A stretch of 39,789 bases of DNA from Ferrimicrobium sp. (lineage in GTDB: Bacteria; Actinomycetota; Acidimicrobiia; Acidimicrobiales; Acidimicrobiaceae), in assembly GCF_027364955.1 (NCBI RefSeq), contig NZ_DAHXOI010000022.1, forward strand, positions 1-39,789, in the 5' to 3' direction. This document shows, one piece after another, positions 19,756 to 36,886 of this stretch. The notes under the pieces were generated by a model. The model saw only the letters and a program-made list of their open reading frames with translations. It made no database searches and was not told the DNA's origin. Each line of letters begins with the position of its first letter. The stretch's first letter is position 1. The position numbers and the translations under genes are program-made.

Positions 19756-20334
19756 TGAACTCCACTCGCGATCCCTTGGTAGGTCATTACTCGGTTAGGA
19801 ACAGATCTGAGGTTTAAAGTATTGGCGACCCGTGCGAAGCCACGGCGGCCCTTCACTCGTCGTTCGAAAGTCGTCATGCCAACTTGTGACAGGTAAGGTC
19901 CACTGCTACACTACCGATGTTCGCCAATACCGACAAAAGGTCTGCTGCCGAAGACCGTGTCGCCTAACGGAGCTGGACCGACGACCCATGTCTTGGGTTA
20001 ATCGCAGGTCCTCGAGAACGGGAACTTCCCTTCCACGGCCGTATTATACCTGGTTGGACGTGTCGCTGTATCATTTTGGTAGCGGAAACGGCAAAGATGA
20101 ACGCCAAGGGGCAATCAATTTCTCGATAGAGGTGGTTGCATCCAACGTCGATAGCTTGATGGAAGCTAGCTCGATGTTTTGAGTTTCCTTAATATCTGGT
20201 CAACTTTCTCCAGTGGCATCCCTGCTTCTAACGATGGTGCCGCATGTCCGGTATTACTCGATGCGCTGGCGACCAGAACGTTGAGGTAGACGTGCTGCAG
20301 CCAGTTCGGTATGAGGTAAGACCCGAAAGACGTC
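19756..20334. other. Gene-free stretch upstream of the integrase
   Basis: Frames at 19832-20182 and from 20244 are open but lack family character. The latter is just an upstream extension of the integrase frame. Nothing else is recognised. Confidence 0.4.
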
Positions 20335-20369
20335 ACACCTTCAGGTGTATGATCGATAACGATTATAGT
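20335..20369 (+). promoter_or_regulatory. Integrase promoter overlapped by a palindromic operator
   Basis: ACACCT-TC-AGGTGT at 20335-20348 is a perfect 6+6 palindrome and covers the expected -35 region. The -10 box TATAGT is at 20364-20369, 6 nt before the ATG at 20376. A repressor bound at the palindrome would block the promoter, and the message should be leaderless. Confidence 0.55.
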
Positions 20370-20375
20370 CAACCC

Positions 20376-21533
20376 ATGAGTACCCGCCGAACCCGCGGCC
20401 AGGGAAGTATCTATCGTTCCGATAACCAGTGGCGTGCCCTCCTCAAGTGGACTGGTCCCGATGGTCGTGTCATCACCCGGTCAAGGCGATGTCGCACCAA
20501 GGCAGAGGCCGAGTCAGTCCTAGCCCAATTCCGTGGTGTCCGTGACGCTGGAGTGACGGAGAATGCCTCAACCACGGTCTCAGGGCTCCTAGACCGATGG
20601 CTAGCGATCCATGAGGGCGATATCGCAGGATCTACCCAGGCCCAATATCAGTGGGCTACGAACCATATCAAGTCCCGCCTTGGCCATGTTCGCATTGAAC
20701 GTCTCACCCCCACCCACGTCGATACCTTTGTTGATCAACTGAGCGCAGCCGGCCTCTCACCCCGCTCTCGTCGACTCATTCGCGTCGTACTCTCCCAGGC
20801 CTGCAAGGCAGCCGTTGGCTGGCGATTGATTGCATCAAACCCCTGTGATCACGCACGCCCAATCAAACTCGAACGCAAGGAACAGAAATCTTTGAGCGTC
20901 GAGGAGGCTCGACAACTCCTCAGTGCCGCCAGAGACGATCGCCTCGGAGTCCTGTGGTTATTACTCCTTGCCCTGGGACTGAGACGTGGAGAGGCACTTG
21001 CGCTTCGCTGGAGTGATGTTGATCTCACCTCCAAGACCCTTACCATCTCACGAGCCCGTGTGAAGTCAGGCTCCAAGGTCATTGAAGGCCCCACCAAGAC
21101 CGCACGATCGACCCGCACCATCCCGCTTCCAGCCTTCCTCATCGAAGCCTTAGACCACCACCGAGACTCCCAGCAGCGAGAATACGACTATCTCATTGAG
21201 CTTGGCTTTACTCCAGCCCGAGACTATCTCTTCACCTCAGTGACCGGAACCCCCTTAGATCCCGATAACACCTCGAAAGCCTTCCAAGCCTTTGCCATAA
21301 AGGCCGGCCTTGGTCGACGCCATGTGCACGAGCTCCGCCACGCCGCAGCCTCTCTGATGCTCGCCGCTGGAACACCGCTCCCCGAAGTCTCCCGAGTCCT
21401 TGGCCATAGCTCCACCCGAGTCACCGACGAGGTCTATGCCCACCTTGGTCATGAGGCACTCCGTGGAGCCGTAGATCGGCTGGCGGGAGTGTTGGAGCCA
21501 ACCCAGGGCCAGGCTAGGCCAACGCCCCAGTAG
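20376..21533 (+). CDS. Tyrosine recombinase / integrase of the mobile element (385 aa)
   Basis: Site-specific recombinase that would integrate and excise the element, probably at the tRNA 3' end found at 17432-17477. The N-terminal part has an AP2-like arm-binding domain (RGQGSIYRSDNQWRALLKW). A SAM-like core-binding domain follows at about 65-160. The catalytic domain has Arg203 (GLRRGEAL), a Lys near 241, His318-x-x-Arg321 (HELRH), His344 (LGHSS) and the nucleophile Tyr354. All catalytic residues are present, so it looks functional. ATG 20376 was chosen because a -10 box and operator sit just before it and the domain starts there. It converges on and overlaps the next gene by 20 bp. Confidence 0.92.
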   Translation: MSTRRTRGQGSIYRSDNQWRALLKWTGPDGRVITRSRRCRTKAEAESVLAQFRGVRDAGVTENASTTVSGLLDRWLAIHEGDIAGSTQAQYQWATNHIKSRLGHVRIERLTPTHVDTFVDQLSAAGLSPRSRRLIRVVLSQACKAAVGWRLIASNPCDHARPIKLERKEQKSLSVEEARQLLSAARDDRLGVLWLLLLALGLRRGEALALRWSDVDLTSKTLTISRARVKSGSKVIEGPTKTARSTRTIPLPAFLIEALDHHRDSQQREYDYLIELGFTPARDYLFTSVTGTPLDPDNTSKAFQAFAIKAGLGRRHVHELRHAAASLMLAAGTPLPEVSRVLGHSSTRVTDEVYAHLGHEALRGAVDRLAGVLEPTQGQARPTPQ

Positions 21534-22719: not shown

Positions 22720-23757
22720 GTGCTAGATAGTGACTATGCAGGTCGTCTTGCCCAACAATACGGTGAACGACCGCCTTGGGCATTCCCATCAATCTACTCT
22801 ATCGCCACTTCAGCTGATCGAGAAGCACAGCGCATCTGGTTGAATCAAGCCTTATGTGCCATTCCTGAAACCGACCGTGACCGTCTTCTAGGTCGTCTGG
22901 AAAAAGAAGCCAACTTTCTATCCACATATAATGAGCTCGCTACCGCGGCGATTTTTCTCCAGGCCGGTTACTCGTTCCGCTACGAGGCGGAATTGGGCGG
23001 GAGGACACCCGATCTCCTCATCCCCAGCGGGGAAGACCACCCGATGTTACTCGTGGAGGTGGTAACAAAATTCCGTAATGATAGCCTACGTCGCATCGAA
23101 CGGCAGTGGAAAGAGTTGGCAACACGCGTCGAGATGATCTCTGTGCCGCTTGTACTGTTGGTCCGCGGTCTTGGTCGCGGTCGGCCAGAACCACCGGATA
23201 GTGGAACAGCGAAACGAGTGGTTTCGGAACTTCAGAAAACCTTGCTTGCCACCCCAGTTGGGATTGGAGATGAGATTGAAATTGAAGATTATGTCTTTGT
23301 CATAGCAGGTCAAGTACCTGGTGCACGCGCCTCTCTGGCAACACCTGCTGGTGCGTCCACATACAACGCTGATCTGGTGCTTGAGGCAGTTCGGGAAAAG
23401 GTCTCAAGGTATTGTTCAGGAGCCGACCGAGTAGGGGCCGCTCTCATCGTCGTCCTTGCTGCCGAATCTCAGTCGCCGCTTTCCATCGACCTTCTCCGTA
23501 CGGCACTGACTGGGGCCCAAACAGTCACGATGAGTTTTGATATCTTCGAACCTGGTCCAGTTAGCTCAGGTCCCTTTTCGATGCGTGCAGAGAACATTCC
23601 CCCAGCGTTCCATCCCTCTGTATCGGCGATAGCTTGGTTGGAGCCAGGCATCGAAAATCCAGGGACACTGACTCTGTTCCCGATCGCCAGTGCTGAGCGG
23701 CAACTACGGTTCCGCCAGTCTGAGAGGCTTGTCATCGAGCAGATCGCCAAGAACTAG
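22720..23757 (+). CDS. Orphan protein with a PD-(D/E)XK nuclease-like core (345 aa)
   Basis: Residues about 65-120 look like a restriction-endonuclease-like core. Glu72 lies in a helix (STYNELATAAIFLQAGYSF), strands carry RTPDLLI (Pro97-Asp98), and LLVEVVTKF has Glu113. In the canonical motif Glu-x-Lys follows; here Glu113 is followed by Val, Val, Thr, Lys117, so the lysine is displaced or lost and activity is uncertain. The C-terminal 200 residues are unrecognised. GTG 22720 has AAGGAGG 9 nt upstream, a strong site. It lies between the integrase and relaxase genes, where defence or anti-plasmid functions are often carried. It could also be a non-catalytic DNA-binding protein. Confidence 0.55.
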   Translation: MLDSDYAGRLAQQYGERPPWAFPSIYSIATSADREAQRIWLNQALCAIPETDRDRLLGRLEKEANFLSTYNELATAAIFLQAGYSFRYEAELGGRTPDLLIPSGEDHPMLLVEVVTKFRNDSLRRIERQWKELATRVEMISVPLVLLVRGLGRGRPEPPDSGTAKRVVSELQKTLLATPVGIGDEIEIEDYVFVIAGQVPGARASLATPAGASTYNADLVLEAVREKVSRYCSGADRVGAALIVVLAAESQSPLSIDLLRTALTGAQTVTMSFDIFEPGPVSSGPFSMRAENIPPAFHPSVSAIAWLEPGIENPGTLTLFPIASAERQLRFRQSERLVIEQIAKN

Positions 23758-23759
23758 CC

Positions 23760-23969
23760 ATGCTTCGTGAGCCTGTCGAGCTCCTCCGTGAACTCAGCAC
23801 TATGAGGCAGCAAGGTCGTACCTGTACGTTCATTTCGGCGTTTGAAAACGACATGAACTCGGCTGACACTGCAATTTGTCGGTTTTGCAAGGTCAAGCCC
23901 GCTTTAGCTCGGATTGTGACAAGGCTGCCGTCAAGCGGTCCCAAACGTCGGGCGTCAGGGTCTGGATGA
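23760..23969 (+). CDS. Small hypothetical protein (69 aa)
   Basis: The ATG lies 2 nt after the stop of the PD-(D/E)XK-like gene, which suggests translational coupling. The N-terminus MLREPVELLRELSTMRQQG is helical, and a CRFCK pair lies in the middle. No family is recognised. The C-terminus is basic and could be the result of a frameshift. It may be the truncated start of a lost gene. Confidence 0.35.
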   Translation: MLREPVELLRELSTMRQQGRTCTFISAFENDMNSADTAICRFCKVKPALARIVTRLPSSGPKRRASGSG

Positions 23970-23971
23970 AC

Positions 23972-24008
23972 GTGCAGGGTTGCTCCACTTGATGTATGAC
24001 CCCTGCAC
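23972..24008. terminator. Hairpin between convergent genes
   Basis: GTGCAGGG (23972-23979) and CCCTGCAC (24001-24008) form a perfect 8-bp stem with a 21-nt loop, just between the ends of the plus-strand small gene and the minus-strand relaxase. No T-run follows, so termination is only suggested. Confidence 0.35.
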
Positions 24009-24033
24009 CGTTATCATTTGCCACCGCTGCACT

Positions 24034-27000
24034 TTATAGCGTTGGAATAGGCGGCCAACCGATACCACGATCAGATGGCGGGGTGCGATGGAGGTCGACA
24101 GTTTGACTCTCACCTGGAGCGCGAGCGGCGATCTCAGCGAGGCGCCTCGCTCGGTAAATCGCCGTACGAACTTGCCTCGTCTGGCTAGCTTGTTGCGGCG
24201 CTATTGCTGCCATCGTCCCTCGTGCGCTCGATGAATCCAAAGAGACTCCCCAGAGTTCGCGATAGGCGGCAACGGTTGCAGTATAGGTTTTCCACTTGAG
24301 CGCAAGCCTTGGATCCCTCGGCACCGGACCGAGTCCCAGAATCCAGTCCTCCCTATCCTCAAGTGCCCGATCCACCAAGGCAAAGGCTCGCTCCCTTATA
24401 GCCTTCTCCCTGTCATCGAGCGCTTGTACAAAGTCTGCATCATCAACCCCTCTGGCCTTTGGCATCAGCCCAACGATGAACTCAGCCTTGCCCAATTCGC
24501 GCGACCCATGCTTCTCGGTCCAACTACGCACTCGTTCGGTCACGAGCGCTATTGGGTCTTTGGCTCCAGCCAATTGATCCTTCTCCTCACCAACCAAGAC
24601 CGCCAGATCATGTTCAAGGTCGATGCCACGACCCTCGGCATCACGAAATGCGGCGGATAATGATCCATAGGACTCGCTTGTGCGTAGCTCTTCAAACCCT
24701 GGAATCGCGAGAGCTTCCAACAACCTCCCATATCGCGACTCCTCGGCCAATCGGGCGATCGTCTCGTACTCCCTATAGAGACGCCCAATGCTCTCGGCGT
24801 CCTCTTGCTCTGCGCGAATCGTCTCCCTAGCGCCGAGTTCGATTCCAGAGTTTGTGAGACATCCAACGAGAACCTCGCGTGCACTTCCCAGCTGTTGACT
24901 TGGTCCATGAGAGGTGCTCTGATCGTCACCGAAGCCGGTATCGACATAAAGGTGATTGGTCTCTCGACCTCTCGTGACTCCGACATAGAGCACTTCTCGG
25001 GTGGTGCCCACACCGATCAAGGTATGAGCACTGGTAACGGTCCTCCCCTGGGCTCGATAGACGGTCATGGCATAGCCGAGTTCAACTGAGGAAAGAACGT
25101 ACTCACTTGGTAGGCGTACCTCGCCCTTCCCATCGATGCGTCGAACCCAGAGGGATCCATCGGTATCAATCGCGCTCACGCTCCAGCGATCCCCGTTCTT
25201 CACCCACCCGTTTCGGGTTCCAAGTAGTCGATTGTTCTCTCTGGTGACGATGTCATCCCCAGCACCACACATGGTGCCATCTCTGAGCTTCACTCCAGTT
25301 GCGGAGACCTCTCCTCGCTCGATTCTCTCCTCCCGGGCTCTCACATTGAGCTCTCTGACACTGTCACGATCGGGTGCAATCATGAGCGAGTCCTTGCCGG
25401 CCAAAACATCGGCCTGCCACCCGGCATACAGCGCATCCAACATCGCATCACGATCCCCACCGAGGATTCGACGATGGGAACCCTACACATCAAGAGCGCT
25501 CGCATCCCCAACTCTAAGCTTCACGCTCGCTTCTCGTTCCCAGTTCTCGCAGAAGCGTCGCACCTCACCCAACCTTGGAACATCACCCTCGCGCTCTCGC
25601 ACCAGTGCGCCAAACATACCGCCAGCCCCAACACTCCCAAGCTGTGCTGGATCCCCAACCAGTACGATCTTGGCCCCTGCATCTCTCACCATCGTGATGA
25701 GTTCATCGAGTTCCAAGGTTCCAACCAATGATGCCTCGTCAAGGATGATCAACTGCCCTTGGCGAAACTGCCAGCGATTCAGTTCACTACGGAGTACGTC
25801 GACCTGTCTCTCAACCCCATGACGTTCTCGACTCCCCAACGACAGGTGGGGGAGGAGGGCACTCAAACGCTCCACCTCTTGCTCTCGCGCCTCCCTTTGT
25901 CTCAATTCATGCAACCACTTGGCACTATTCTCAGCACCAATAGCGAGCTCAGCTCCCAGTACCTCAGCAGCCGTTGCCGATGGTGCGATTCCCAAAACGC
26001 TACCTGGACCATACACGCGCTCCCAGAGGGAACGAAGCCCTGCCATGGTCGTGCTCTTACCAGTACCGGCGGGACCAACCAAGAGATCAACTGCTCTTCC
26101 AGATGAGACGATCAACTCAATCACCCGTCGTTGTTCTGAGCTCAAACGAACACTGGAAACACCTGACTCTAAACCTCCCCCTTCCGCCAATCCAATGACA
26201 CCCTGAGCGATGAACGGCCCCCCAAGATCGTCACCTGCCGCAAAGATCCGAGCCTCAGCCCCAAGGAGTTCTCGCGTGGTATAGCGACGTCGATCGAGGC
26301 TTCGAAGACGCGAGGCGCCATCGGCTCGACGAAGCACTGCTGGGGTGTGATGAAGCTCAGGAGGAGAGAGCTCGACGGCACGCTCAAGGGTCAAAACAAC
26401 AAGGCGTTCACCGACATCGATGCGCTCGGCTGGATCGACAAAACGCATCCCTTGGAGATAACGGTGAACCTCGGCTAGGACATTGGCGCGGGTAAAGGTT
26501 GCATGATTCTCCCCAACACAGCGGAGGATTACCCCCGCGCTCTCAGCCAACATCTCATCCCCAAAATCATCAGCGCAAAGCACCGGTAGGTCATTGGAGT
26601 CACAAACATGTAGAACCAACTCACCTGGTTCAAACCCGAGATGGTCGCATGCCCGCTCACGCCACAGCTCACTCATCTCCAAAAGGGAGCGGTGAACCTT
26701 TTCCTCTCTTGTCTCCAGATTGGCCCGCTGAGAGAGTCGAAGGATCTCGATCCCCGTCGCCTCTCTTCCGTGGCTCTCCCGAAACGCTCCGATGAGCTCT
26801 GCTCTACGGGTCCTAATTGCCTGTACTCGTTGTGAGAAGCAATCCATCAGAGAATCCGGTACCCCCTTGATCTCAGACTTTCTCATGCCACCGGGAGTCA
26901 CTCGTTCCTCCCATGCAACTCCAAGTGCCTCCGTCAAGAGATCAGCCAGGATCCCCTCATGTAGGACCCCAAGGGCGACTACCGAGGAGTACAGCCCAGC

Positions 27001-27654
27001 CCCATCAATCGTTCTCCACTTCCCATCTGAGACTGACTTCACTCGATTCCAGACGATGACGTGATCATGAAGTTGGGGATCCCCAGCACGTGAGTCATAG
27101 TGGGTAAAGCTTGCCGCCGACACCCCACGGACGTCTTCTTGGACCACGCCATTCTTCCCAGATCGTGAGTGAATGACCTGGCCCTCAGCGTAGGCAAGAG
27201 CCAGATCAATCGCCCTCTGGTGACACCCATAGATCCTCGCTTTGGTCGCCTCATCAGCCAAGGCCCAAAGCGTTGAGACCGACTTTGGTGGTGAGAACGT
27301 GAGATCAAATCCAGCGACGGGCTTGGCGCCAGAACCAGCAGAGCTCACACCCTCCCCAACAACAGACCTTGGCCGCGCAATCGCCTGGCCAACACTCTCA
27401 CCTGTGATGGGGTCAGCGATGAGACCAAGGAGATTCCAGAGCTGGGACTCGCTCACCTCTGACCCCAACTCGATCCCCACTCCATCTCCCAAGTCAGCTA
27501 AGCCAGCCCCCTTCCACCTCCCAGGTGGCGTACCAGATTCTGCGTAATAACGAGTGAGAGCCGATCCAGGTTCGCACCCACCATCCCCAACAGCAATGGA
27601 GTCCATCAGGTAGCGATACCCCTGGCCAATGCTGAGCTTCGCGATACTGAGCAT
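24034..27654 (-). pseudogene. MobF (TrwC/TraA-type) relaxase-helicase interrupted by one in-frame TAG
   Basis: Conjugative relaxase that would nick oriT and unwind the transferred strand. The start is ATG 27654 with AAAGGG 8 nt upstream. The TrwC relaxase domain (about 1-300) has an early Tyr pair (YRYL, Tyr13 and Tyr15) and the metal-binding histidines His185, His196 and His198 (PQLHDHVIV). The RecD-like helicase has Walker A VGPAGTGKST (526-535), Walker B IILDEAS and the motif VGDPAQLGSV. Codon 724 is TAG (25485-25483). Reading resumes in the same frame with GSHRRILGGDRDAMLDALYA and continues 482 codons through the late helicase motifs (ELGYAMTVYRAQGRT, VLYVGVTRGRE). Total length is 1206 codons, normal for the family. 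A Tyr codon is usual before GSHRRI-like sequence, so TAC/TAT to TAG is likely. Confidence 0.9.
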
Positions 27655-27941
27655 GCCTACAACCCTTTACCATCGAGTGAACCCATCCTCACCTCATGGG
27701 CACGAAGAGGAGGAAATCAGTCGCACCAACACAAACCGAGGAGACAACCCCAGCGCCAAGCGCTCGCCGGATGCAAGGTGTGTGGTTGCAAAATGGGTGG
27801 GGGAGCAGCGATAGTTCATGGGAGGTGAGGGTGCGAGTCCGGAGGCTCTGGTTAGGCCCGGGTGTCGGCTCCGAGTTGAGTAGTGACTGCTTGAGGGATC
27901 TGGTCCCGGTTGACAGGTTCTCTGTTGTTGGGGATCTTGAC
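27655..27941. other. Divergent region upstream of the relaxase, candidate oriT
   Basis: MobF origins of transfer usually lie next to the 5' end of the relaxase gene. This 287-bp stretch has an imperfect inverted repeat: CCTCACCTC-ATG near 27689-27702 and CATGGGAGGTGAGG near 27819-27832. A small repeat AGCG-CCAAG-CGCT lies between them. No known nic sequence was recognised. An open frame runs through it from 27696 into gene A, but it lacks a ribosome site. Confidence 0.3.
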
Positions 27942-28403
27942 ATGAGGGATAATGAACGCGCAAAGCTAGCTAATCTCTGGCACCGTCGAGAACTGGCCTT
28001 TCAAGATTGGCTCCTCGCAAAGGAGCAACTCAAAGCCTCAGCCGCTCAACACCGCCGAATCACTGCCGCCAAGGCAGCCGCCTTCCGAGCTCAAGGGATC
28101 TCCGAAGCGCAACTCGCGCGGTACCGATCCTGGCACGATCACCAGTCGCTGCCCCGCGATCCAAGGACGATCGAACGCTACGTCCGATGGCGTAGTGTCA
28201 TCACGCTGATTGACGCGCAGTGGGAATCCAAGCTCAGCGTCGCGACCGTAGACCTCAAGTGCTCCACCCTTTGCTTGGTAAAGGCAACGTCAGAACTGCT
28301 TTCGGTGATGCCGCGCGCAATGGTCGTGGAACTGTCCGGAGACACGGCACGCTCACTGGTGGCAAAGCTTGCCCCATTGGGAGATTTGGCTCATGCTTCA
28401 TAG
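27942..28403 (+). CDS. Gene A: helical protein of unknown function (153 aa)
   Basis: Alanine-, arginine- and leucine-rich helical protein, divergent from the relaxase. The N-terminal part (LANLWHRRELAFQDWLLAKE) and the middle (AAKAAAFRAQGISEAQLARY) look like a coiled or bundled helix followed by a turn. The C-terminus has TSELLSVMPRAMVVELSGDT. I recognise no family. ATG 27942 has GGGGAT 6 nt upstream; the frame is open upstream to 27696 without support. Its last ~50 codons recur, frameshifted, at 31332-31500. Proximity to the relaxase suggests a transfer or maintenance role, but that is inference only. Confidence 0.55.
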   Translation: MRDNERAKLANLWHRRELAFQDWLLAKEQLKASAAQHRRITAAKAAAFRAQGISEAQLARYRSWHDHQSLPRDPRTIERYVRWRSVITLIDAQWESKLSVATVDLKCSTLCLVKATSELLSVMPRAMVVELSGDTARSLVAKLAPLGDLAHAS

Positions 28404-28471
28404 CTGTGGTAGCCCATGAAGCTTCGTCCTGCCGGTGAGTGGGAGTCTCCAAGAAACCTGGGTGTTATTTA

Positions 28472-28493
28472 AGGAATCAGATGTCGGATTCCT
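28472..28493. promoter_or_regulatory. Inverted repeat before the DUF4232-like lipoprotein gene
   Basis: AGGAATC (28472-28478) and GATTCCT (28487-28493) form a perfect 7-bp inverted repeat with an 8-nt loop, 24 bp before the ATG at 28518. It could be an operator or an attenuator-like hairpin following gene A. Confidence 0.4.
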
Positions 28494-28517
28494 AAGAGGT
28501 GATAGAGTCAGAAGGAA

Positions 28518-29498
28518 ATGAAAGTTAGACGATCACTGAGACTCCTAACTGTCGTCCTGATCGGGGCGTTGGTCTTGGCGTCGTGCACCTCACCAGCAAA
28601 GGGCTCAGTATCTTCGGTAATCAGCAATGGGACCTCAACGCTGCGAATTCCCAAGTCATCGTTGACCAAGCGCTTTCTCATTATCAAAGGTAGCTGCACC
28701 ACGACGGCTCACACCCCTGGTTTGCCGGTCTTAAAAATGCGGCTGTCGCTGACACACCAGTCCGAGGCCGTCACAGCCGCATTTTGTCATGAGCCACGCT
28801 CTACGTTCGCGTACTACCTTGACTCAAGTCGATTTCCACCCGATGCGACAATTCAGCTCTTTTCGTTTCCTCCGCAGATCAAATGGACGATTGCGTTCTC
28901 ACGATCAACTACTCGTCAAGGAGCCAAGAGCTTTTCGATCTTCTCGACCTACGTTCCGCCTGCACCCAAGCCACCTGTGCTACCTGCTAGGGCACCCACT
29001 TGCACTCCGAGTCAGATATCGGTGCGCATTACCGGTGTTGGGGATGAGGCATCTGTGGTAAACGCCTACCTTGCCGTTTCAGATCTCTCATCGAGTCCCT
29101 GCAGCCTAGACGGGTGGCCGACGATCTATGGGGTCACGGCAAGTGGAGAGTCTATTCCTTTGGTTCGACAGAGCGCCATGGGCCAGAACGGACATATCCT
29201 TCACCATCCATCGTTCATCGTTATCAAGAGGGATGTTCAAGCTGCTTACAGTCAAGTGACATTTATGCCAGACTGCATCGGCGGCAATACGGGAGTAATT
29301 ATTGAGAAGAACTTCACTTCGCTCAGCGTCACGCTGCCCAATAATCTGGGCAAATATTCGATTGCATCGTCGGCATTCAATCAAGGATCCGCCATCCAGA
29401 CTCCAGATAGCTGCTACTACGCCTCTGGCAAGCTCTACTACGGCACGATCTATGCGTTCTTTGTTCCTTCTTTCGGAGAGCCCGCTCACGCTCTGTGA
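28518..29498 (+). CDS. Lipoprotein with a DUF4232-like C-terminal domain (326 aa)
   Basis: The signal peptide MKVRRSLRLLTVVLIGAL followed by the lipobox VLASC gives Cys23 as lipid anchor. The first half of the mature protein has two Cys residues but no known domain. The second half, from CTPSQISVRITGVGDEA onwards through SSSPCSLDGWPTIYGVTASG to PDSCYYASGKLYYG, has the pattern of DUF4232, a domain frequent in actinobacterial secreted proteins. It follows gene A in the same direction, and AAGGA lies close before the ATG. In the second copy of the module a different exported protein occupies the equivalent place. It is probably surface-exposed; a role in exclusion or cell contact is only a guess. 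Confidence 0.7.
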   Translation: MKVRRSLRLLTVVLIGALVLASCTSPAKGSVSSVISNGTSTLRIPKSSLTKRFLIIKGSCTTTAHTPGLPVLKMRLSLTHQSEAVTAAFCHEPRSTFAYYLDSSRFPPDATIQLFSFPPQIKWTIAFSRSTTRQGAKSFSIFSTYVPPAPKPPVLPARAPTCTPSQISVRITGVGDEASVVNAYLAVSDLSSSPCSLDGWPTIYGVTASGESIPLVRQSAMGQNGHILHHPSFIVIKRDVQAAYSQVTFMPDCIGGNTGVIIEKNFTSLSVTLPNNLGKYSIASSAFNQGSAIQTPDSCYYASGKLYYGTIYAFFVPSFGEPAHAL

Positions 29499-30030
29499 TT
29501 CCGAAGTACTGGCGGTGTTGGACGCTTGCTATTGGTAAGAGCGTTCGAGGAGGGTCACCATTGCGTGCGATGCGGGCGAGAGCCGAACTCCTGCGTATAC
29601 CCATAGCTAACTTCTTGTTTGTGATACCCGGATACCTCACAGATCGCAGAGTCGATATCGGTGACCATGGGGTCATCTCCGGGGACCAGACCCACTTCTC
29701 AAACCCCTAGGTCTCAGTATCAGTGCGTATGGATGCCCATATCCAGGCAATTTGTCGTTGCTAGGTGCTCGCTGATTGAGTCCGAAGTGGCCGAGAGATT
29801 CCAGATGGACTAGTCTTACCGAATCCGAATCTGATGGTCGGTTAGCAATGCTACCCCGTGGGCTGTCCAAGACCGAAGGCGATCAGGTGCTCGGTCATAG
29901 ACACCTCTGGCCTGCTCTCTATCATGCCTGTAACGCTCGCTAGCAAATTTATTGGTCTACCGCCGGGCCAAGGTTTCTTCACTTGTCCGGCCTATTTTTA
30001 GCAAACAGTTTGTGCCAGCTACAGAGGCGT
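29499..30030. other. Gene-free stretch
   Basis: No supported frame between the lipoprotein and the decayed gene B copy. Homology to the second module copy begins only around 30031. Confidence 0.4.
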
Positions 30031-30099
30031 TGCATGACCACCGACTACTTCCCATAACATCCGTACAACGGGCGAGCGCAGCTATCCGGTTGACTCCCC

Positions 30100-30336
30100 G
30101 TGAGCCAAAGACAACCGACCATGGCGACAGAGCCCACCGACGCACACCCACCGACCCACAGCGTAACATCATGCGAGAAAAGGCCAAGGCCGATACCCGC
30201 GCAATGGAGGGAGGAGGCGCTGATTGCCAGAGAACTCCTCAATCGGGGCCAGAGGACTCGCGAGGCAGCTATCGCCGCGGCAGGGGAAGCATCGGATAGG
30301 TCAGTTCCAAAACCCTCGAGTGGTATCCGGGAGTGA
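30100..30336 (+). pseudogene. Decayed copy of gene B with compensating insertions
   Basis: The DNA from about 30031 to 30300 matches the region of intact gene B at 31530-31765. Relative to it there is a 14-bp insertion, which is a tandem duplication (CCCACCGACGCACA at 30133-30146, CCCACCGACCCACA at 30147-30160). A 4-bp GGAG duplication follows near 30206-30213. Together they add 18 bp, so a middle segment of about 20 residues is read in a wrong frame while both ends stay in frame (MATEPTDAH; EEALIARELLNRGQRTREAAIA). The conserved C-terminus is lost. The frame stays open, so a short protein may still be made, but the sequence character is lost. Confidence 0.7.
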
Positions 30337-30539
30337 TTGTGCCACGAATCCTACGCAAACATTGGGCAGTTGGTGTGGTAGCGGGAAGTGCGGCGAATTC
30401 TTTGGTGGGCATAGTGGCGGCGATGGCATGCTATTTCATGACGACGGAGCCAGAAGAGGGGAGAACTTCGATACCAGTTACTGGCGATATCCACAATAAA
30501 GAGTCATTAACTTCTACTGCGAAGGGCAACAGAGGCTAG
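30333..30539 (+). CDS. Small single-pass membrane protein (about 68 aa)
   Basis: The frame starts at GTG 30333 (or GTG 30339). A basic n-terminus VPRILRKHW precedes a hydrophobic span of about 22 residues (VGVVAGSAANSLVGIVAAMA) and a short polar tail. It could be a small membrane protein or an uncleaved signal. It ends 24 nt before the next exported protein and starts inside the end of the decayed gene B copy. No family is recognised, and the ribosome site is weak. Confidence 0.35.
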   Translation: MIVPRILRKHWAVGVVAGSAANSLVGIVAAMACYFMTTEPEEGRTSIPVTGDIHNKESLTSTAKGNRG

Positions 30540-30563
30540 AGTATCAGAGATGGGAGCGGAATT

Positions 30564-31322
30564 CTGATTAATAAGATTTGGAAACTTGCTTCAGTCGTCG
30601 TGATTGTACCTATTGGTGTAGCAGTTTATTTTGGCGCCCACTCGTCTGGTATAAAGACCATAAAGCGATCATCAACCTCTCAGGTAGCGAAAGCCAGGAT
30701 TTCGCCGAAGTCGAAGTTTTCGACGCAACCCACCGCGAGCACGAATGCGCCCTCATGCACAGCGGCTCAACTGACGATTACTACCCCAACTGATAGTGAC
30801 GACTATAGAGCTCTTTACAACGCCTACATCCAGGCGATCGGCATGAACCAGGAGTTCCATGCCAAGATGATCGAGAACACCTCAGGAACGAGCTGTTCAT
30901 TGGGTGGTGGTATACCCAAAATGGAACGCATTGTTGTCACTGGTTCCCAGTCCGAGGCGCTGTCGGCAACGTCGCCACCTCTACCCGATGGTGTGACGAT
31001 CATTGTCGAAGGTCAGCCTCCAGCGGGTCCAGTCTTTACCCTGGCACCAGCAGCGAAGGCTGAGATCTGGTACGGGTCGGACAATGTGAAACCGAACCCA
31101 GCTGGGCATGTCAACTCCGCGACTACGCGTTTGACCGACTTGGTCTCCTGCGTCGAGGTCTTCTCGATACCGACGCCATCGGGATCCGTGAGCGTTCCAG
31201 GACCGGTCCAGAAGTGTGACAACTTTCAGCCACTGTTTCTCAACAACTACGGCTACTTCTTTCCGCTGTCCCCAAAGTTGACCACCGTCCTCCCGAAGTC
31301 GGACGTCTCCCTTCTTCGCTAG
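30564..31322 (+). CDS. Exported protein of unknown function (about 252 aa), non-AUG start
   Basis: The frame contains a signal-like N-terminus: NKIWKLASVVVIVPIGVAVYFG, written in two parts as NKIWKLASVVVI and VPIGVAVYFG. A Ser/Thr-rich linker and a beta-rich domain with paired Cys follow (SCTAAQL, SCSLGG, SCVEV, KCDNF). No ATG is available upstream. GGGAGCGGA at 30552-30560 precedes CTG 30564 and ATT 30567. The GTG at 30600 would cut the basic part of the signal, so a non-AUG start is proposed. The next sequence after its stop is the decayed tail of gene A, so the gene was placed upstream of a module copy. The exported proteins of the two copies are unrelated except in being exported. Confidence 0.5.
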   Translation: MINKIWKLASVVVIVPIGVAVYFGAHSSGIKTIKRSSTSQVAKARISPKSKFSTQPTASTNAPSCTAAQLTITTPTDSDDYRALYNAYIQAIGMNQEFHAKMIENTSGTSCSLGGGIPKMERIVVTGSQSEALSATSPPLPDGVTIIVEGQPPAGPVFTLAPAAKAEIWYGSDNVKPNPAGHVNSATTRLTDLVSCVEVFSIPTPSGSVSVPGPVQKCDNFQPLFLNNYGYFFPLSPKLTTVLPKSDVSLLR

Positions 31323-31331
31323 ATTCTCCTG

Positions 31332-31500
31332 TGGGAATTCAAGCTCAGTGTTGCGACCGCAGACCTAGAGCAGGCCACCCTTCGCTTGGCAAAGGCAACT
31401 TCAGAACTGCTTTCGGTGATTCTGCGCGCAATGGTCGAGGAACTATCCGAAGAGACGGCACACTCACTTGGCGATGCTTGCCCCATTGGGGGAGAGCGCA
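31332..31500 (+). pseudogene. 3'-terminal remnant of a second gene A copy
   Basis: The sequence begins at TGGGAATTCAAGCTCAG, matching gene A at 28221. It continues as WEFKLSVATADLEQATLRLA, then SELLSVILRAMVEELSEETA. A 2-bp deletion relative to gene A near 31475 shifts the end. The first two thirds of gene A are missing. The order remnant-A then intact gene B probably shows the original adjacency of A and B, while the lipoprotein gene of the first copy is an insertion between them. Confidence 0.8.
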
Positions 31501-31601
31501 GTGGGGACTACTTAAGAAGTCATGACGACTTTCCACGACATCGGCACAACGGGTGAGGGGAGCTATCAGCTTAACTCCGCGTGAACCAAGGAGATCTGAT
31601 C

Positions 31602-31877
31602 ATGGTGACAAGGCCCACCGACGCACAGCGCACCATCATACGAGAAAAGGCCAAGGCCGATACCCGAGCAATGGAGGAGGCGTTGATTGCCAGGGACCGC
31701 CTCGATCGGACCGAGAGGACTCGCGAGGCGACTATCGCCAAGCTAGACCGAGCAGTTGGCGAAGCTAAAGCAGCGTATCAGCTCGCACTCGATGGGCTCA
31801 CGGCTCGTGTTGGTAAAGAGCTTGTGGCTGAGCTACTTGGGACAGAGCTCGTTCGATCCCCACGACAGAGGTCATAA
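31602..31877 (+). CDS. Gene B: small helical, charged protein (91 aa)
   Basis: MVTRPTDAQRTIIREKAKAD opens a charged, almost entirely helical protein (EEALIARDRLDRTERTREAT, then VGEAKAAYQLALDGLTARVG). It is likely a coiled coil or small helical bundle, with no Cys, no signal and no recognised family. ATG 31602 has AAGGAG 8 nt upstream, a good site. A decayed copy lies at 30100-30336. It follows the gene A remnant by about 100 bp. It may act as a DNA-associated or partner protein of gene A; this is inference. Confidence 0.6.
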   Translation: MVTRPTDAQRTIIREKAKADTRAMEEALIARDRLDRTERTREATIAKLDRAVGEAKAAYQLALDGLTARVGKELVAELLGTELVRSPRQRS

Positions 31878-32044
31878 ACCTGATGGAGACCCTGGCGATG
31901 TCTTGCTTTGCGAGAGTAGTGCTTAAAAGACTGTCGATGGTATTCCACTCCGGGTCGGAGCGTTGCGCTCGAGCTTCAACATCGTGGGCGATGCGTCCGT
32001 CAGAAGGGATTGAGTCCGACTAGGTTTGGTCGCAGGAGGCATGG

Positions 32045-32224
32045 ATGCTTGTTATCACGCGTAAGGAAGGTCAGCGGGTACGAATTGGCAGCGATATTGT
32101 GCTGACGATCGTCGAGGTGGACGGTCATTCGGTGCGCATTGGCATTGAAGCACCTTTGAACATTCACATTGAGAGGCCAGTTGATGATCAACCAGAAGCC
32201 GCGGACGAGGTCTTGAGCGGGTGA
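32045..32224 (+). CDS. csrA: Carbon storage regulator CsrA (59 aa)
   Basis: The protein opens MLVITRKEGQRVRIGSDI and continues VLTIVEVDGHSVRIGIEAP with a C-terminal LNIHIERP. This is the complete CsrA/RsmA fold: the N-terminal RNA-binding strand LVITRKEG, the central strands and the signature RIGIEAP. The usual Arg-rich C-terminal contact is here HIERP. CsrA is an RNA-binding dimer that represses or protects mRNAs by binding GGA motifs at ribosome sites. ATG 32045 has AGGAGG at 32034-32039, itself a GGA site that could mediate autoregulation. No fliW or flagellar gene is near. It is the only obvious global regulator in the cargo region. Confidence 0.9.
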   Translation: MLVITRKEGQRVRIGSDIVLTIVEVDGHSVRIGIEAPLNIHIERPVDDQPEAADEVLSG

Positions 32225-32418
32225 ATATTCGGTGAATGCATCGTTGGGGTCGGCTGGCGTTGCTGCGAATGACGAGCTTCTCATCACGGCGTGTTCTTGA
32301 TTACCAATGCTCGCATGCCGATGTTCTAGTGGAAGGCCCGGTGTCAGAGGCTCCGCTCTCGGGCATGTACTGCTCATGAGCCTCACAACTTGGTGAGCCC
32401 ATCAATTGAATTACGCAG
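32225..32418. other. Gene-free stretch
   Basis: No coding sequence is supported between csrA and the DUF4440-like fragment. Confidence 0.4.
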
Positions 32419-32580
32419 TTGGTAACACTCGTGGATCTCGCCGAAGTAGTTCGCCGTGAGCGACAACTACTTGACCCATCAGTGCGAGCGCTGGGCGAGT
32501 CTGCGGTAAAGGCGCGATACGCTGACTTGGTGGCGTATGGGGCGTCTGGTCACATGTGGTGCTCCGCGATCATTATGTCA
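32419..32580 (+). pseudogene. Truncated duplicate of the DUF4440-like gene at 34134
   Basis: From TTG 32419 the frame gives VTLVDLAEVVRRERQLLDPS, closely matching the gene at 34134-34490 (VTPEDLAEVVRHERQLLDPS) in DNA and protein. The original GTG start has become TTG. The likeness ends at about 32580, where the ribosome site GGAGGA of the DJ-1-ABM copy begins. It is therefore a 5' fragment cut off by whatever event placed the DJ-1-ABM gene here. Confidence 0.8.
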
Positions 32581-32593
32581 GGAGGAATTCCCG

Positions 32594-33535
32594 TTGAACC
32601 AGCGACCATTACAGGTGGGGATGGTCCTCTTTGAGGACTTCGAGCTGCTTGATGTCACTGGTCCCCTGGAGATCCTCGGGAAGCTTCCCGAAGCATTCGC
32701 GATCACGTTGATTGGCCAAGAGCTCAAACCCACGAGCAGCGTTCAAGGGGTCTCCATCATGCCCACTGCCGCGATGTCGGAGGCACCAAGCGTTGAACTC
32801 TTGATGGTTCCGGGAGGAATGGGTACGCGCAGATTGGTCAACGACAAAGCATGGATCGACTGGCTAGGCTCCTACGGACGCCAAGCATCACTCGTCGCCT
32901 CGATCTGTACCGGTGCAGCCCTGCTGGCAAGAGCTCAACTCTTAGATGGCTACCGTGCAACCACCAACAAGCGTGCCATGGAGTGGGTCCAAGAGATGGC
33001 CCCGAACATCAGTTTTGAACCAAGGGCCCGGTGGGTAAGAGATCGAGACCGGTGGACCTCCTCGGGGGTGGCTGCCGGCATGGATATGACGCTCGCCTTG
33101 GTGGCTCATCTCTTGGGTGAGACCCAAGCACGAGAGGTGGCCAGTGCGATTGAATACGAGTGGAATGATGACCCAGATCACGATCCCTTTGCCAAGGATG
33201 AGGACCACGAGGGACTCCCGGGTTCCCAAGAGGTTCTGACGGTCTTTCGCTCCCGCCTTAAACCAGATCACCAAGACTACGAACTCGTTGCTGACGATCT
33301 CGAGCAGCTCGCCCGGAACCAACCCGGGTTTCGATTCTTTAAGACCTACCAAGCCCAAGATGGTGAGCGATGCTCAATCGTAGTGTTCGACAGTGAGGAG
33401 TCCCAAAGGGCTTGGAGAGTCAATCCCCGCCACCTTGAGGTCCAACGGCGTGCGGCTCGTGACTTCTACTCTGAGTTCTCGGTCCAGGTCGGTAGTCTCC
33501 TTCGGGAAGTGAAGGTGGAGGGCTCCCAATCCTGA
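32594..33535 (+). CDS. DJ-1/PfpI-type protein fused to an ABM-like domain (313 aa), copy 2
   Basis: Paralogue of 6571-7509 with the same two-domain build and length. It has a DJ-1/PfpI domain (about 6-190) with SICTG, Cys105 as nucleophile and Thr106 next to it, and LLDGYRATTNKRAMEWV. An ABM-like domain (about 218-305, LTVFRSRLKPDHQDY, QPGFRFFKTY) follows. At the position of the acidic Asp16 of copy 1, this protein has Glu14 in FEDFELLDV. The start is TTG 32594 with GGAGGA at 32581-32586, 7 nt upstream; this choice makes the N-terminus match copy 1. It sits directly after a truncated DUF4440-like fragment. The two copies may have different substrates. Confidence 0.8.
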   Translation: MNQRPLQVGMVLFEDFELLDVTGPLEILGKLPEAFAITLIGQELKPTSSVQGVSIMPTAAMSEAPSVELLMVPGGMGTRRLVNDKAWIDWLGSYGRQASLVASICTGAALLARAQLLDGYRATTNKRAMEWVQEMAPNISFEPRARWVRDRDRWTSSGVAAGMDMTLALVAHLLGETQAREVASAIEYEWNDDPDHDPFAKDEDHEGLPGSQEVLTVFRSRLKPDHQDYELVADDLEQLARNQPGFRFFKTYQAQDGERCSIVVFDSEESQRAWRVNPRHLEVQRRAARDFYSEFSVQVGSLLREVKVEGSQS

Positions 33536-34120
33536 GGACATACCTTCGAGTTGTGATTGCTTTGGTCGCCCTGGCCTCGTAGCGATAGGTTTCTAGCCAC
33601 CCGTCATCCTCTGCGCCCGTCGCCCCGGCAGCCGGTGCAAGGGCCGTATGGTAGAGCGCCAGCGACGTGATACCAGATTCGTCAGACGTGAGGGCAGGAC
33701 TCCTTAAGGTAGCCAGACGACTACCAGGGGGTCGAGGCTCCAATGCAGGAGCTCGAATCGAACCCTCCATATTTAGTCATCAATTATCATCAGTGCAGTT
33801 CAGAAAGGAGTGTTCCTCGCGGCCTGTCATGAATTACCACGGTTTGGCGAGATTCCATGACGCAAAATATGACACGCTCTCTGCTGTTACAACCGCCGGA
33901 TCGCTGGCATCCCCTCTCCGACTCTCGCTGTTGTCGCGAAATTGAGGAACTGGTGGCGAATCTCTGATGTCTGTCGGGGTGATGCCGATCGTATTCGACT
34001 CCGATCTCACTTTCTTGGTGAAATTATGGCTACGGACCTATTCACAGGTCCCGCGTTGTCCGATGCTCCGGTTGCGTTAGGGATCCCTTCGTGAGCCGCA
34101 CCCCTTGATCAGGGGGCCAA
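33536..34120. other. Gene-free stretch
   Basis: Open frames on both strands (for example 33420-33770 minus) have no domain or ribosome site. No structure was recognised. Confidence 0.4.
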
Positions 34121-34126
34121 TAGAAT
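34121..34126 (+). promoter_or_regulatory. -10 box for leaderless DUF4440-like gene
   Basis: TAGAAT lies 7 nt before the GTG at 34134, with no ribosome site between. A -35 element was not recognised. Confidence 0.4.
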
Positions 34127-34133
34127 TTCGCAA

Positions 34134-34490
34134 GTGGTAACACCCGAGGATCTAGCCGAAGTAGTACGCCATGAACGGCAACTACTTGACCCATCAGTGC
34201 GCGCGGTGGGCGAGTCTGTGGCAGAACTCCTGCATCCTGACTTTGTTGAGCACGGGGCATCTGGTCGCATCTGGGACTCCGCTGTCATCACATCTGCTCT
34301 CAAGGCCGACCCGGGAGTGTCCGGGGAAGCCGTGGAGTTTTCGCCCGTGGCGCTTTCGGAGGATGTCGTGCTACTGACCTATCGCATCGTCGGGAAACCA
34401 GGGTCTCTTCGAAGTTCGATTTGGGTGAAGGATTCGCTGTCTTCCTGGCGCATTCGGTTTCATCAGGGGACCCGGCTGACCACTGATTAG
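34134..34490 (+). CDS. DUF4440/NTF2-like protein (118 aa)
   Basis: Small NTF2-like protein of the DUF4440 type. It has an N-terminal helix (LAEVVRHERQLLDPSVRAVG), then LLHPDFVEHGASGRIWD, the family-typical strand-turn. The C-terminal strands are VVLLTYRIVGK and SLSSWRIRFHQGT. Such proteins bind small ligands or act as isomerase-like enzymes, or are fused to other enzymes; the specific role is unknown. The start is GTG 34134. A truncated duplicate lies 1.7 kb upstream at 32419-32580. It is followed by a HAD hydrolase with its own promoter. Confidence 0.75.
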   Translation: MVTPEDLAEVVRHERQLLDPSVRAVGESVAELLHPDFVEHGASGRIWDSAVITSALKADPGVSGEAVEFSPVALSEDVVLLTYRIVGKPGSLRSSIWVKDSLSSWRIRFHQGTRLTTD

Positions 34491-34572
34491 CATCGCGGGA
34501 TGTAGCGACCGTCCAACATTGACACCCTCCCAATGCACCATGTGAGTCGGTGAAGATTTCCCACACCGGGGG

Positions 34573-34578
34573 TAACCT
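34573..34578 (+). promoter_or_regulatory. -10 box for leaderless HAD gene
   Basis: TAACCT lies 6 nt before the GTG at 34585. No Shine-Dalgarno is seen between. Confidence 0.4.
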
Positions 34579-34584
34579 GAAGTC

Positions 34585-35259
34585 GTGACACGACTTAAGA
34601 ACCCACCCAATCCGAAGATTCGAACCGTTGTATTTGATGTCGGGGAGACTCTTGTTGATGAGTCTCGAGAGTATGGGTCATGGGCTGACTGGCTCGGTGT
34701 TCCTCGCCACACCTTCTCGGCAGCCTTTGGGGCGATTCTTGCAAGAGGTGGCGATTATCGAGATACCTTTCAAGTGTTTCGCCCAGGCTTTGATCTCGCT
34801 GTCGAACGAGAAGCCAGAGTGCAGGCGGGGCGTCCTGAGACCTATGACGAATCGGATCTGTATCCTGACGCGAGACCTGGCCTCAAGGCACTGCAAGACG
34901 CAGGCTTTGGTGTTGGCATCGCGGGTAATCAGACGATTCGTTCCGAGGCGATCCTGCGTCAGCTCAACTTCGCTGCCGACTGGATTGCTACCTCCGATGG
35001 CTTAGGGGTGGCGAAACCGTCCAGCGAGTTCTTTCGCGCGATCATCGACTTGGCTGGCGTTGGAGCTTCTGAGATTCTTTACGTAGGGGATCGACTCGAC
35101 AACGACATCGCGCCGGCGCAAAGGATTGGAATGGCGACCGTGCTCATCCGGCGCGGACCGTGGGGATACGTCATGGAGGATCCAGAGGTCGAGAGGCGTT
35201 GTCTTGCCACGATCAATTCGCTCACGGAACTGACAGCCCTGCTAGCCAACCCCGAGTAG
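34585..35259 (+). CDS. HAD-superfamily hydrolase (224 aa)
   Basis: Haloacid-dehalogenase-type phosphatase or hydrolase. Motif I is FDVGETL with Asp18 as nucleophile; the usual second Asp (position +2) is Gly20. Motif II is the IAGNQT segment, motif III Lys is in AKPSSEFF, and motif IV is GDRLDND. A helical cap lies between motifs I and II (about 35-95). HADs with DxGxT lack the general acid/base Asp and are known as a subgroup, so activity may be different or slow. The stop at 35259 overlaps the end of the convergent XRE-TPR gene by 18 bp. Substrate unknown. Confidence 0.85.
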   Translation: MTRLKNPPNPKIRTVVFDVGETLVDESREYGSWADWLGVPRHTFSAAFGAILARGGDYRDTFQVFRPGFDLAVEREARVQAGRPETYDESDLYPDARPGLKALQDAGFGVGIAGNQTIRSEAILRQLNFAADWIATSDGLGVAKPSSEFFRAIIDLAGVGASEILYVGDRLDNDIAPAQRIGMATVLIRRGPWGYVMEDPEVERRCLATINSLTELTALLANPE

Positions 35260-36477
35260 TTCCCGCTCGCGCTCACGGAGATCTGTTGCCCAAGGAGTCC
35301 CTCGCAAGGATGCTTCGAGCGTTGGGAGCCGATTGATTGCCATGAGGTAGGGTCGCTCTCTGACGAGCGTGAGTCCCTCGGTGACATATTGCATGGATTG
35401 CTCGGGTGCCGTGGTGCTGTAAGCGATGGCTAAGTCAAAGCACACAACCGCGCGTTGTTTGATCTCTGTGATCTGTTCCAGTGCGTCGGCAAGGTGCTGG
35501 GCCGCCTGTTCTGACCTACCTGCTGCGAGTTCGACTGTTCCTGCAAAGGAGGCGGTTCGTGTTTCGTCGTACCAGTCAAACCATTGAGGCATCTCTCCTT
35601 GGCGATTCAGTCCTTCATCGGCAGCGCGCATTTGTTTGAGCGCCGTACTAGGATCTCCCGCGATCGCTGCGAGTTCAGCGCGCACGCAATGGAGCCAGGA
35701 CCTCAACATGGGCTGGCCGCGCCGCGGCGCGGTTAGGTCGGCGCGTCGAAGCCATCCGGCTGCGCCCGCGTGGTTACCTCCAAAACCTGCAATGAATGCA
35801 CGGTGGGCCAAGATTGCCGCCAGTAAGGGATTGTCCCTTGCGGTCTGTGCTAATGCAGCTGCGGTTGCAAAGTGCGCCTCGCCGGTGTCTGGATCATTAC
35901 GATCAAAGAACGCCAACCGTCCCGCGAGCAGTGCGACCCAAGCTGTGGCAACGGCGATGTCAGCACGTTGCCTTCTTGCACTCGAGAGATATGAGAGACC
36001 TTCGCCTAGGAGATTGACTGCCTCAGTCTCCACGGACTGCGGCCGCCCACCTCGATAACGCTGTGCTGTCTGGTGCACTCGTTCCTGATAATCGGCGAGA
36101 TCTGTCCCCTCAAATGAAGCGATGGGGGAGAGGGAGAAGCGCGCGACTGTTCCAAGCGAACGGGCTGAGGCTGCGGATGCTGACAAGGCGGTGATTCCAA
36201 CCGTACCCATCAAGAAGGTACGTCGCGTCATAGGGGGATGCACGTCTCCATCATCGGGTGGCGCCGAATCAGGTAAGACATTGTGCAGGTAAGGCCACCA
36301 GTGGGCACTTGGCGACGACGTGCCACGCTCCCACCGTGCTATTTGACCTTGCATATTTTCTGCTCGCGTTGGTCCCCAGTCCTCTCCAGCGGCCCTGATG
36401 GCCTGGAGTAGCAGCTCAGCTAATTGCATCTGAGTGAGACCAGCAGCAGTTCTAGCCTCGCGAAGAGTACGTGCCAT
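35242..36477 (-). CDS. XRE-family regulator with TPR-like C-terminal domain (411 aa)
   Basis: An N-terminal HTH of the XRE type spans about 3-60 (LREARTAAGLTQMQLAELLL, then IARWERGTSSPS). An interrupted twin-arginine-like motif MTRRTFLMG with a hydrophobic tail lies at 83-100, deep inside the chain. The C-terminal ~300 residues are helical repeats resembling TPR (AEAHFATAAALAQTARDNPL-like spacing, and AAGWLRRADL). Proteins of this build in Streptomyces and relatives act as regulators of morphology or element functions. ATG 36477 was chosen over the open extension to 36588 because a TACAGT -10 box (complement of 36485-36490) precedes it by 7 nt. It is divergent from the HTH_17 gene and probably controls it. 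Overlaps the HAD gene by 18 bp. Confidence 0.8.
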   Translation of the reverse strand: MARTLREARTAAGLTQMQLAELLLQAIRAAGEDWGPTRAENMQGQIARWERGTSSPSAHWWPYLHNVLPDSAPPDDGDVHPPMTRRTFLMGTVGITALSASAASARSLGTVARFSLSPIASFEGTDLADYQERVHQTAQRYRGGRPQSVETEAVNLLGEGLSYLSSARRQRADIAVATAWVALLAGRLAFFDRNDPDTGEAHFATAAALAQTARDNPLLAAILAHRAFIAGFGGNHAGAAGWLRRADLTAPRRGQPMLRSWLHCVRAELAAIAGDPSTALKQMRAADEGLNRQGEMPQWFDWYDETRTASFAGTVELAAGRSEQAAQHLADALEQITEIKQRAVVCFDLAIAYSTTAPEQSMQYVTEGLTLVRERPYLMAINRLPTLEASLRGTPWATDLRERERELLGVG

Positions 36478-36484
36478 GGCACCA

Positions 36485-36560
36485 ACTGTAGCATAATCAA
36501 CGCGAGTGGGGTGGCTGAACAAACACAATTTCACATATTTGTGAGGTTTTTCACATATTA
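36485..36560. promoter_or_regulatory. Divergent promoter region with direct repeats and a palindrome
   Basis: The minus-strand -10 TACAGT is the complement of 36485-36490. TCACATATT occurs at 36531-36539 and again at 36551-36559, exactly 20 bp apart, which is two helical turns. CACA-TATT-TGTG around the first repeat is a perfect small palindrome. These fit binding sites of a dimeric regulator, most simply the XRE-TPR protein, controlling both directions. Confidence 0.5.
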
Positions 36561-36603
36561 TTGCCCGGTAATCGAATAATTCGTCCACGCTTTACTGGAT
36601 GGT

Positions 36604-36879
36604 ATGACACACACCACACCCAGTATCGATCAGACCCTATCCGAACCTCGTTCCCAATCACCTGTTGGCATCTTGCTTGACATCGATGAGGCAGCGACCG
36701 CATTACGCATCAGCCGCTCTCGTCTGTTTCAACTCGTTGGTTCTGGTGAGCTTCAATCAGTGAAGTTGGGACGGAGACGATTGTTTCGACGATGCGACCT
36801 GGAAGCCTTTGCTTCTGGCCTTGCGACGACTCCCATTGCCAACCGTTCCCGAGGAAGAGTCTCGGGAGCGAGGAGGTAG
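36604..36879 (+). CDS. HTH_17/excisionase-type DNA-binding protein (91 aa)
   Basis: Small winged-helix protein of the MerR-like excisionase group. Residues about 24-73 read LLDIDEAATALRISRSRLFQ then LVGSGELQSVKLGRRRLF and RRCDLEAFA, the standard HTH_17 pattern. In actinobacterial integrative elements such a gene lies just before the replication genes or acts as a directionality factor with the integrase. ATG 36604 is used. It ends 7 nt before the next gene, so the three plus-strand genes probably form one operon controlled from the divergent region. Confidence 0.85.
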   Translation: MTHTTPSIDQTLSEPRSQSPVGILLDIDEAATALRISRSRLFQLVGSGELQSVKLGRRRLFRRCDLEAFASGLATTPIANRSRGRVSGARR

Positions 36880-36886
36880 GGGTGAC

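Follow-up and report, generated by a model that had tools for sequence, protein, structure and literature searches.

A duplicated gene pair with cargo and decayed copies in a putative integrative conjugative element of Ferrimicrobium

The subject of this analysis is a pair of small genes, here termed A and B, in a 39,789-nucleotide stretch of the Ferrimicrobium sp. assembly GCF_027364955.1 (contig NZ_DAHXOI010000022.1; hereafter the window), which forms contig C22 in the 3.08-Mb genome that we designate G000. We found that the A-B pair recurs and is under selection at several loci, and that it occurs in tandem whole and broken copies with different genes lying between them. The explanation that we favour, with a probability of roughly 0.58, is that an accessory gene pair of an integrative conjugative element (ICE) was duplicated as cargo genes entered, and that the redundant halves then decayed.

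Two copies of the pair in the window

When the window was compared with itself by blastn, the A repeat (28220-28384 and 31331-31493) was 84.8% identical over 165 columns (E 3e-46) and the B repeat (30043-30276 and 31524-31739) 76.9% identical over 234 columns (E 3e-47). This homology is far beyond chance and lies within 3 bp (A) and 26 bp (B) of the positions at which the original prediction, made from the letters of the window, had placed two copies of an A-B module. The complementary decay that it had described is likewise present in the window: copy 1 has a whole A and a broken B, and copy 2 a remnant of A and a whole B. A1 (27942..28403, + strand), an open reading frame (ORF) inside a longer open frame, runs from an ATG at 27942 to a stop codon ending at 28403 and is intact at 153 residues, with orthologues in G004 (92%) and G001 (72%). 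B1 (30043..30276, +), recognised by its blastn homology, still aligns at the DNA level with about B codons 1-46 but has lost the second half of the gene; two insertions, one of 14 and one of 4 nt, scramble its middle and jointly restore the frame. A2 (31331..31493, +) is a 3' remnant that corresponds to A codons ~94-147 and has a 2-nt deletion in the window, while B2 (31602..31877, +) is intact at 91 residues in a longer frame open from 31581 and has relatives in G003, G004:C47, G000:C40 and G028.

The two copies hold different cargo. Copy 1 has its A-B junction split by lip1 (28518..29498, +), an exported or lipoprotein-like ORF, so that A homology stops at 28384 and B homology starts at 30043; in copy 2 the matching ends of A and B (31493 and 31524) are just 30 bp apart. 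The start of lip1 looks lipoprotein-like by eye, its best resemblance to DUF4232 (PF14016) is sub-threshold (24.3 bits, cut-off 27), and in G004 and G001 it too adjoins A. Between B1 and A2 lies exp2 (30600..31322, +), an exported-type ORF of uncertain start that is 97% conserved in G004 and gave no match in Pfam. The orthologous locus of G004 (G004:C53) carries the same B1 lesions and A2 remnant, from which it follows that most of the decay is older than the split of the two genomes. G004 also has extra insertion sequence-like DNA between lip1 and B1 (window 29761-29764; L029 1-434, L030 1-950), where the flanks overlap by 4 bp and two contigs begin.

Recurrence of the pair and selection on its genes

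Sixty genomes, including that of the window, were searched at E values up to 0.01. A matched six (G000, G001, G003, G004 and, weakly, G033 and G034, the last of which, with three stops inside, we treat as noise) and B matched four (G000, G003, G004 and G028). Profile searches of 397 genomes of the order placed A in four, every one in the genus, and B in six, namely three genus genomes, G028 and the distant G077 and G155; a wider B search of 396 genomes of the phylum matched three, G000 itself and, weakly and inside long frames, G049 and G619. Neither gene matched phage records or viral contigs, plasmids gave no match for B and a single one at E 0.1 for A, and a genome contig collection gave 0 matches with A alone and one locus with the A alignment. 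A literature search returned nothing on either gene.

Whether A and B ever occur together elsewhere, the point on which the original prediction had staked itself, is answered by G003:C31, G004:C47 and G000:C40, at each of which A adjoins B; with the window and G004:C53, A is followed by B in 5 of the 11 records searched for the pair. The pair at G003:C31 is made up of A at 2039-2524 and B at 2600-2878, that at G004:C47 of an A' lacking part of its N terminus and a B' from 3584, and that at G000:C40 of an A present only from about residue 84 and an open B with no usual start codon at the aligned position. The two genes are spaced by ~75-100 bp and do not overlap. Tandem whole and broken copies with different intervening genes are found at the window/G004 locus and at two others: G003:C31 has A-B, an open PIN-type toxin and antitoxin pair and a fused A'B' remnant, and G004:C47 has A, GNAT and antitoxin genes and then A'-B'. 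At G000:C40 the truncated A and the B adjoin the same toxin/antitoxin pair as at G003:C31 (the toxin/antitoxin and GNAT families were assigned from the G000:C40 and G004:C47 proteins). Relative to G003:C31, G000:C40 has after B an insertion of ~116 bp (L009 6023-6138) with an 8-bp flank overlap, resembling a miniature inverted-repeat transposable element (MITE).

Unpaired copies were also seen. Two A genes lie at contig ends (G001:C103, which ends before the B position, and G001:C51, which ends inside A), and others are the first A of G004:C47, a truncated copy at G003:C44, a 28-residue remnant at G003:C11 and a fragment at G033:C181; G028, which is of another genus, has B by itself (G028:C14) and no A match at E 0.01. 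The distant B-like proteins of G155 (L052 1432-1698) and G077 (L053 1429-1662, beside an ATPase-like gene) have C termini that resemble a helix-turn-helix by eye, with a sub-threshold match of the former to HTH_Tnp_IS1 in Pfam (E 0.0072, 16.4 bits, cut-off 24.9); the neighbours of the G155 gene we take to be HicA/HicB. The exported proteins, which the original prediction had cast as partners of the pair, do not follow it: lip1 is in 3 of the 11 records (window, G004:C11, G001:C103) and exp2 in 2 (window, G004:C53), neither was found beside the other A-B pairs in these records, and around a lip1 relative at G004:C77 neither A nor B is matched within 1.5 kb on either side. Both look selected in their own right, with ratios of nonsynonymous to synonymous change (dN/dS) of 0.22-0.28 for lip1 and 0.29 for exp2.

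For A, dN/dS was 0.41 (G000-G004), 0.28 (G000-G001 and G004-G001), 0.42 (G003-G004:C47) and 0.57 with the A' of G004:C47, and the synonymous excess was significant between G000 and G001 (p 4e-8), G000 and G004 (p 0.03) and G003 and G004:C47 (p 0.002). For B, dN/dS was 0.17 (G003-G004:C47, p 4e-5) and, in the C-terminal part of B2, 0.07 (G000-G004, p 2e-4). The A2 remnant gave 0.78 and an excess that was not significant (p 0.35, G000-G004). On the evidence of these substitution patterns, the synonymous excess shows A and B to be selected as proteins at some loci, and together with the five records in which A precedes B it upholds the proposal of a real two-gene module.

Selection of this kind would also be expected if, as originally proposed, both intact halves were kept as one functional pair, it being neutral which copy decays so long as the last A or the last B is protected. 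Besides the purifying selection, all three genus genomes with B also have A. However, B2 of G004 is frameshifted at the very same locus by a 4-nt insertion, the same as that in B1, which goes against the split pair having been kept; since G004 has another A'-B' on C47 that could substitute, the test is not final. G001 has A without a B match, though its contig stops short of where B would lie, and G028 has B without A. We put maintenance of the split pair at well under even odds. The insertion in G004 B2 may be ancestral and lost in G000, an independent event, or the product of conversion.

What the proteins themselves might do was approached through families and predicted structure. Window A and B have no Pfam match at E 1 and none in NCBIfam or PHROGs; the best Pfam match among their relatives is SAM_SMF (G003 A; E 0.0043, 17.7 bits against a cut-off of 27), and in PHROGs the relatives reach E 0.034 or worse. 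AlphaFold models A (8 sequences; pLDDT 89.5, pTM 0.73) as a pair of long helices, separated and followed by shorter helices, and B (5 sequences; pLDDT 89.7, pTM 0.50) as a single helix over residues 7-85. Foldseek searches of the A model against the PDB and viral models gave no match at E 0.001 (best PDB E 0.56), and VIA-align Z scores of up to 8.8 with long-helix proteins are within the chance range for helical models. Homology between A and B is unsupported (profile comparison probability 3.9%, 1.0% with a wider B set), as is a coiled coil, the periodicity of B and of both A helices not exceeding that of shuffled sequences at p 0.05 (lowest p 0.053, G003 B). Small adjoining genes on a mobile element, with a number of degenerate copies of which two lie next to a PIN/ribbon-helix-helix-like toxin-antitoxin pair, would fit a toxin-antitoxin or comparable addiction system carried by the ICE. 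We nevertheless consider it improbable, given that A and B match no toxin, antitoxin or defence family above cut-off in Pfam or NCBIfam and nothing significantly in PHROGs, that PADLOC yielded one match for window B (E 0.03) and none for A, that the genes lie ~75-100 bp apart instead of overlapping, and that B stands by itself at G028:C14, in a copy that may be relaxed.

The surrounding element and the relaxase

We read the window region as a putative ICE of the type IV secretion system (T4SS) type, with a MobF relaxase on one side of the A-B locus and the regulator part on the other. It has a tyrosine-type integrase of the phage integrase family (20244..21533, +; PF00589, E 2.8e-25) and a MobF/TrwC relaxase (24034..27654, -) that passes NF041492 (207 bits, cut-off 100). 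The relaxase frame is broken in the window by an in-frame TAG (25443-25483), for which a sequencing error is possible, and is uninterrupted in G004, G001 and G003. To the right of the A-B locus are a helix-turn-helix-type protein and an ATPase/primase-like gene, both sub-threshold in Pfam. Window 34617-37188 and 38067-39491 are syntenic with G003:C31 (65% and 70%), and that contig carries an NlpC/P60 gene and runs on to a type IV coupling protein (T4CP; PF02534, E 3e-27); this synteny fits the T4SS-type reading. The window contig stops short of any coupling protein or VirB4-like ATPase; on G003:C31 the search for the latter (AAA_10) stayed at 17.3 bits, under the 27.5 cut-off. No tRNA was found in the window.

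The relaxase and A1 are divergent, and the intergenic region between them (27655..27941, unstranded), conserved in 3 genomes, is a candidate for a putative origin of transfer (oriT); a short palindrome at 27754-27769 is single, imperfect and confined to the window. A and B could be relaxosome accessory proteins required for transfer at this site. A1 and the relaxase point away from each other in G000, G004 and G001, and also in G003, where ~1.6 kb separates them; the A remnant of G003:C11 is divergent from a relaxase fragment; and both window proteins are basic (isoelectric point 10). On the other hand, the tie to the relaxase raised by the original prediction is not supported on wider sampling, PF08751 being in 50 of the 60 genomes and in 7 of 7 from the genus, of which four have A and three have B, while the remaining three (G002, G005 and G006) carry the relaxase yet match neither gene. 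Flanks of same-type relaxases in G002 and G005 hold neither gene, save for a 22-residue match in G002 (E 0.02), which weakens a relaxosome role, and the window relaxase is unmatched around G000:C40 (12.0 kb), G004:C47 (4.4 kb), G001:C51 (4.5 kb), G028:C14 (8.0 kb) and G033:C181 (4.1 kb). A required relaxosome role appears rather unlikely. From position and charge we infer, with low confidence, that A (basic, a helical hairpin with short C-terminal helices) and B (a single long helix) might be joint, dispensable accessories near the oriT or relaxase.

Several features nearby were recorded in passing. Two G003 contigs share 520 identical bases at their ends (L033 1-520, L034 13477-13996), suggesting that they adjoin, in which case a full relaxase would be divergent from a mycothiol-transferase-like gene, A and B. 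A csrA gene lies just 3' of B2 (32045-32224); CsrA has five matches in the window's genome, four above cut-off, and at least one above cut-off in 7 of 7 genus genomes. Direct repeats occur at 18898-19281 (offsets ~144 and 288 bp, 82-90% identical). No RNA families were found at 23000-36000, and promoter and terminator scans gave no excess over shuffles.

A proposed history of duplication, cargo gain and decay

On the reading that we favour, A and B would be small helical proteins whose genes form an accessory pair, located between the relaxase and the regulators of a T4SS-type ICE in one actinobacterial genus. Recombination would have brought in DNA with another A-B copy plus cargo (lip1, exp2), leaving a duplication; with two copies present, one of each gene would have been free to decay, and it would be by chance that A survived in the first copy and B in the second. 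A second truncated and whole pair in the window (32374-32573 and 34089-34288, with DUF4440 in the whole copy), which encloses another, presumably DJ-1/PfpI-like gene, fits the same process. The whole looks like ordinary duplication and decay around a real, uncharacterised gene pair.

A number of points weigh against this account. No recombination junction was observed, and the plain A-B spacing of copy 2, set against the lip1-split copy 1, means that at least two events are needed. The ratios for B of 1.10 (G003-G000:C40) and 0.82 (G003-G028) suggest that these copies may be relaxed, and the synonymous excess comes from one-sided exact tests that treat sites as independent. Fold searches gave no support for DNA binding by A, and the same-type relaxases of G002 and G005 do without the pair. 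Gene conversion, first suggested by a divergence scan, is not borne out by polarised sites: of the 4 in B at which G004 B2 equals B1 against G000 B2, 3 are private to G000 and 0 favour conversion, and of 13 such sites in A, 4 favour it, 6 are private to G000 and 3 are undecided. The G000-G004 divergence dip at A2 (86-89%) is not unique either, since windows of 87-91% lie near 32065, 32265, 32465, 32565 and 33465. Some sequence exchange between the copies is possible.

A transposon or MITE carrying A-B was also considered and rejected. Ahead of the A start, copies of the second A type have no more than some tens of bp in common, and inspection of the flanks by eye, though no systematic search was made, revealed no shared inverted ends. 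More speculatively, the A-B copies could be homology arms that capture or swap ICE cargo, an exchange promoted by the encoded proteins (perhaps as helical helpers of recombination or annealing), so that tandem broken and whole copies with changing cargo would be the footprint of an active gene-capture system. We think this combined proposal very improbable; if true, it would be a testable route for ICE gene gain without a dedicated transposase or integron. The present findings provide two orphan gene families, both under selection, from one ICE lineage, together with naturally occurring stages of duplication, cargo insertion and decay that are spread over several loci in one genus.

Relaxosome accessory proteins such as TrwA and TraY are small, basic and encoded beside the relaxase. 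A and B resemble them in these respects and differ in that no family match was found and that relaxases of the same kind occur without them. In ICE accessory-gene hotspots, variable cargo occupies a fixed interval between conserved genes; the present locus is similar, except that here the cargo is flanked by a gene pair in intact and broken copies. As to the class of element, the screen for the FtsK-type class (actinomycete ICEs, AICEs) reported in PMC3218068 found none in Acidimicrobidae. The host of the window presumably belongs near that group. Set against the T4SS-type ICEs with a MOBF relaxase in Actinobacteria covered in PMC3218068, among which we found no named counterpart of A-B, lip1 or exp2, the element around the window locus shares the integrase, the MobF/TrwC relaxase and, on the syntenic G003 contig, the T4CP.

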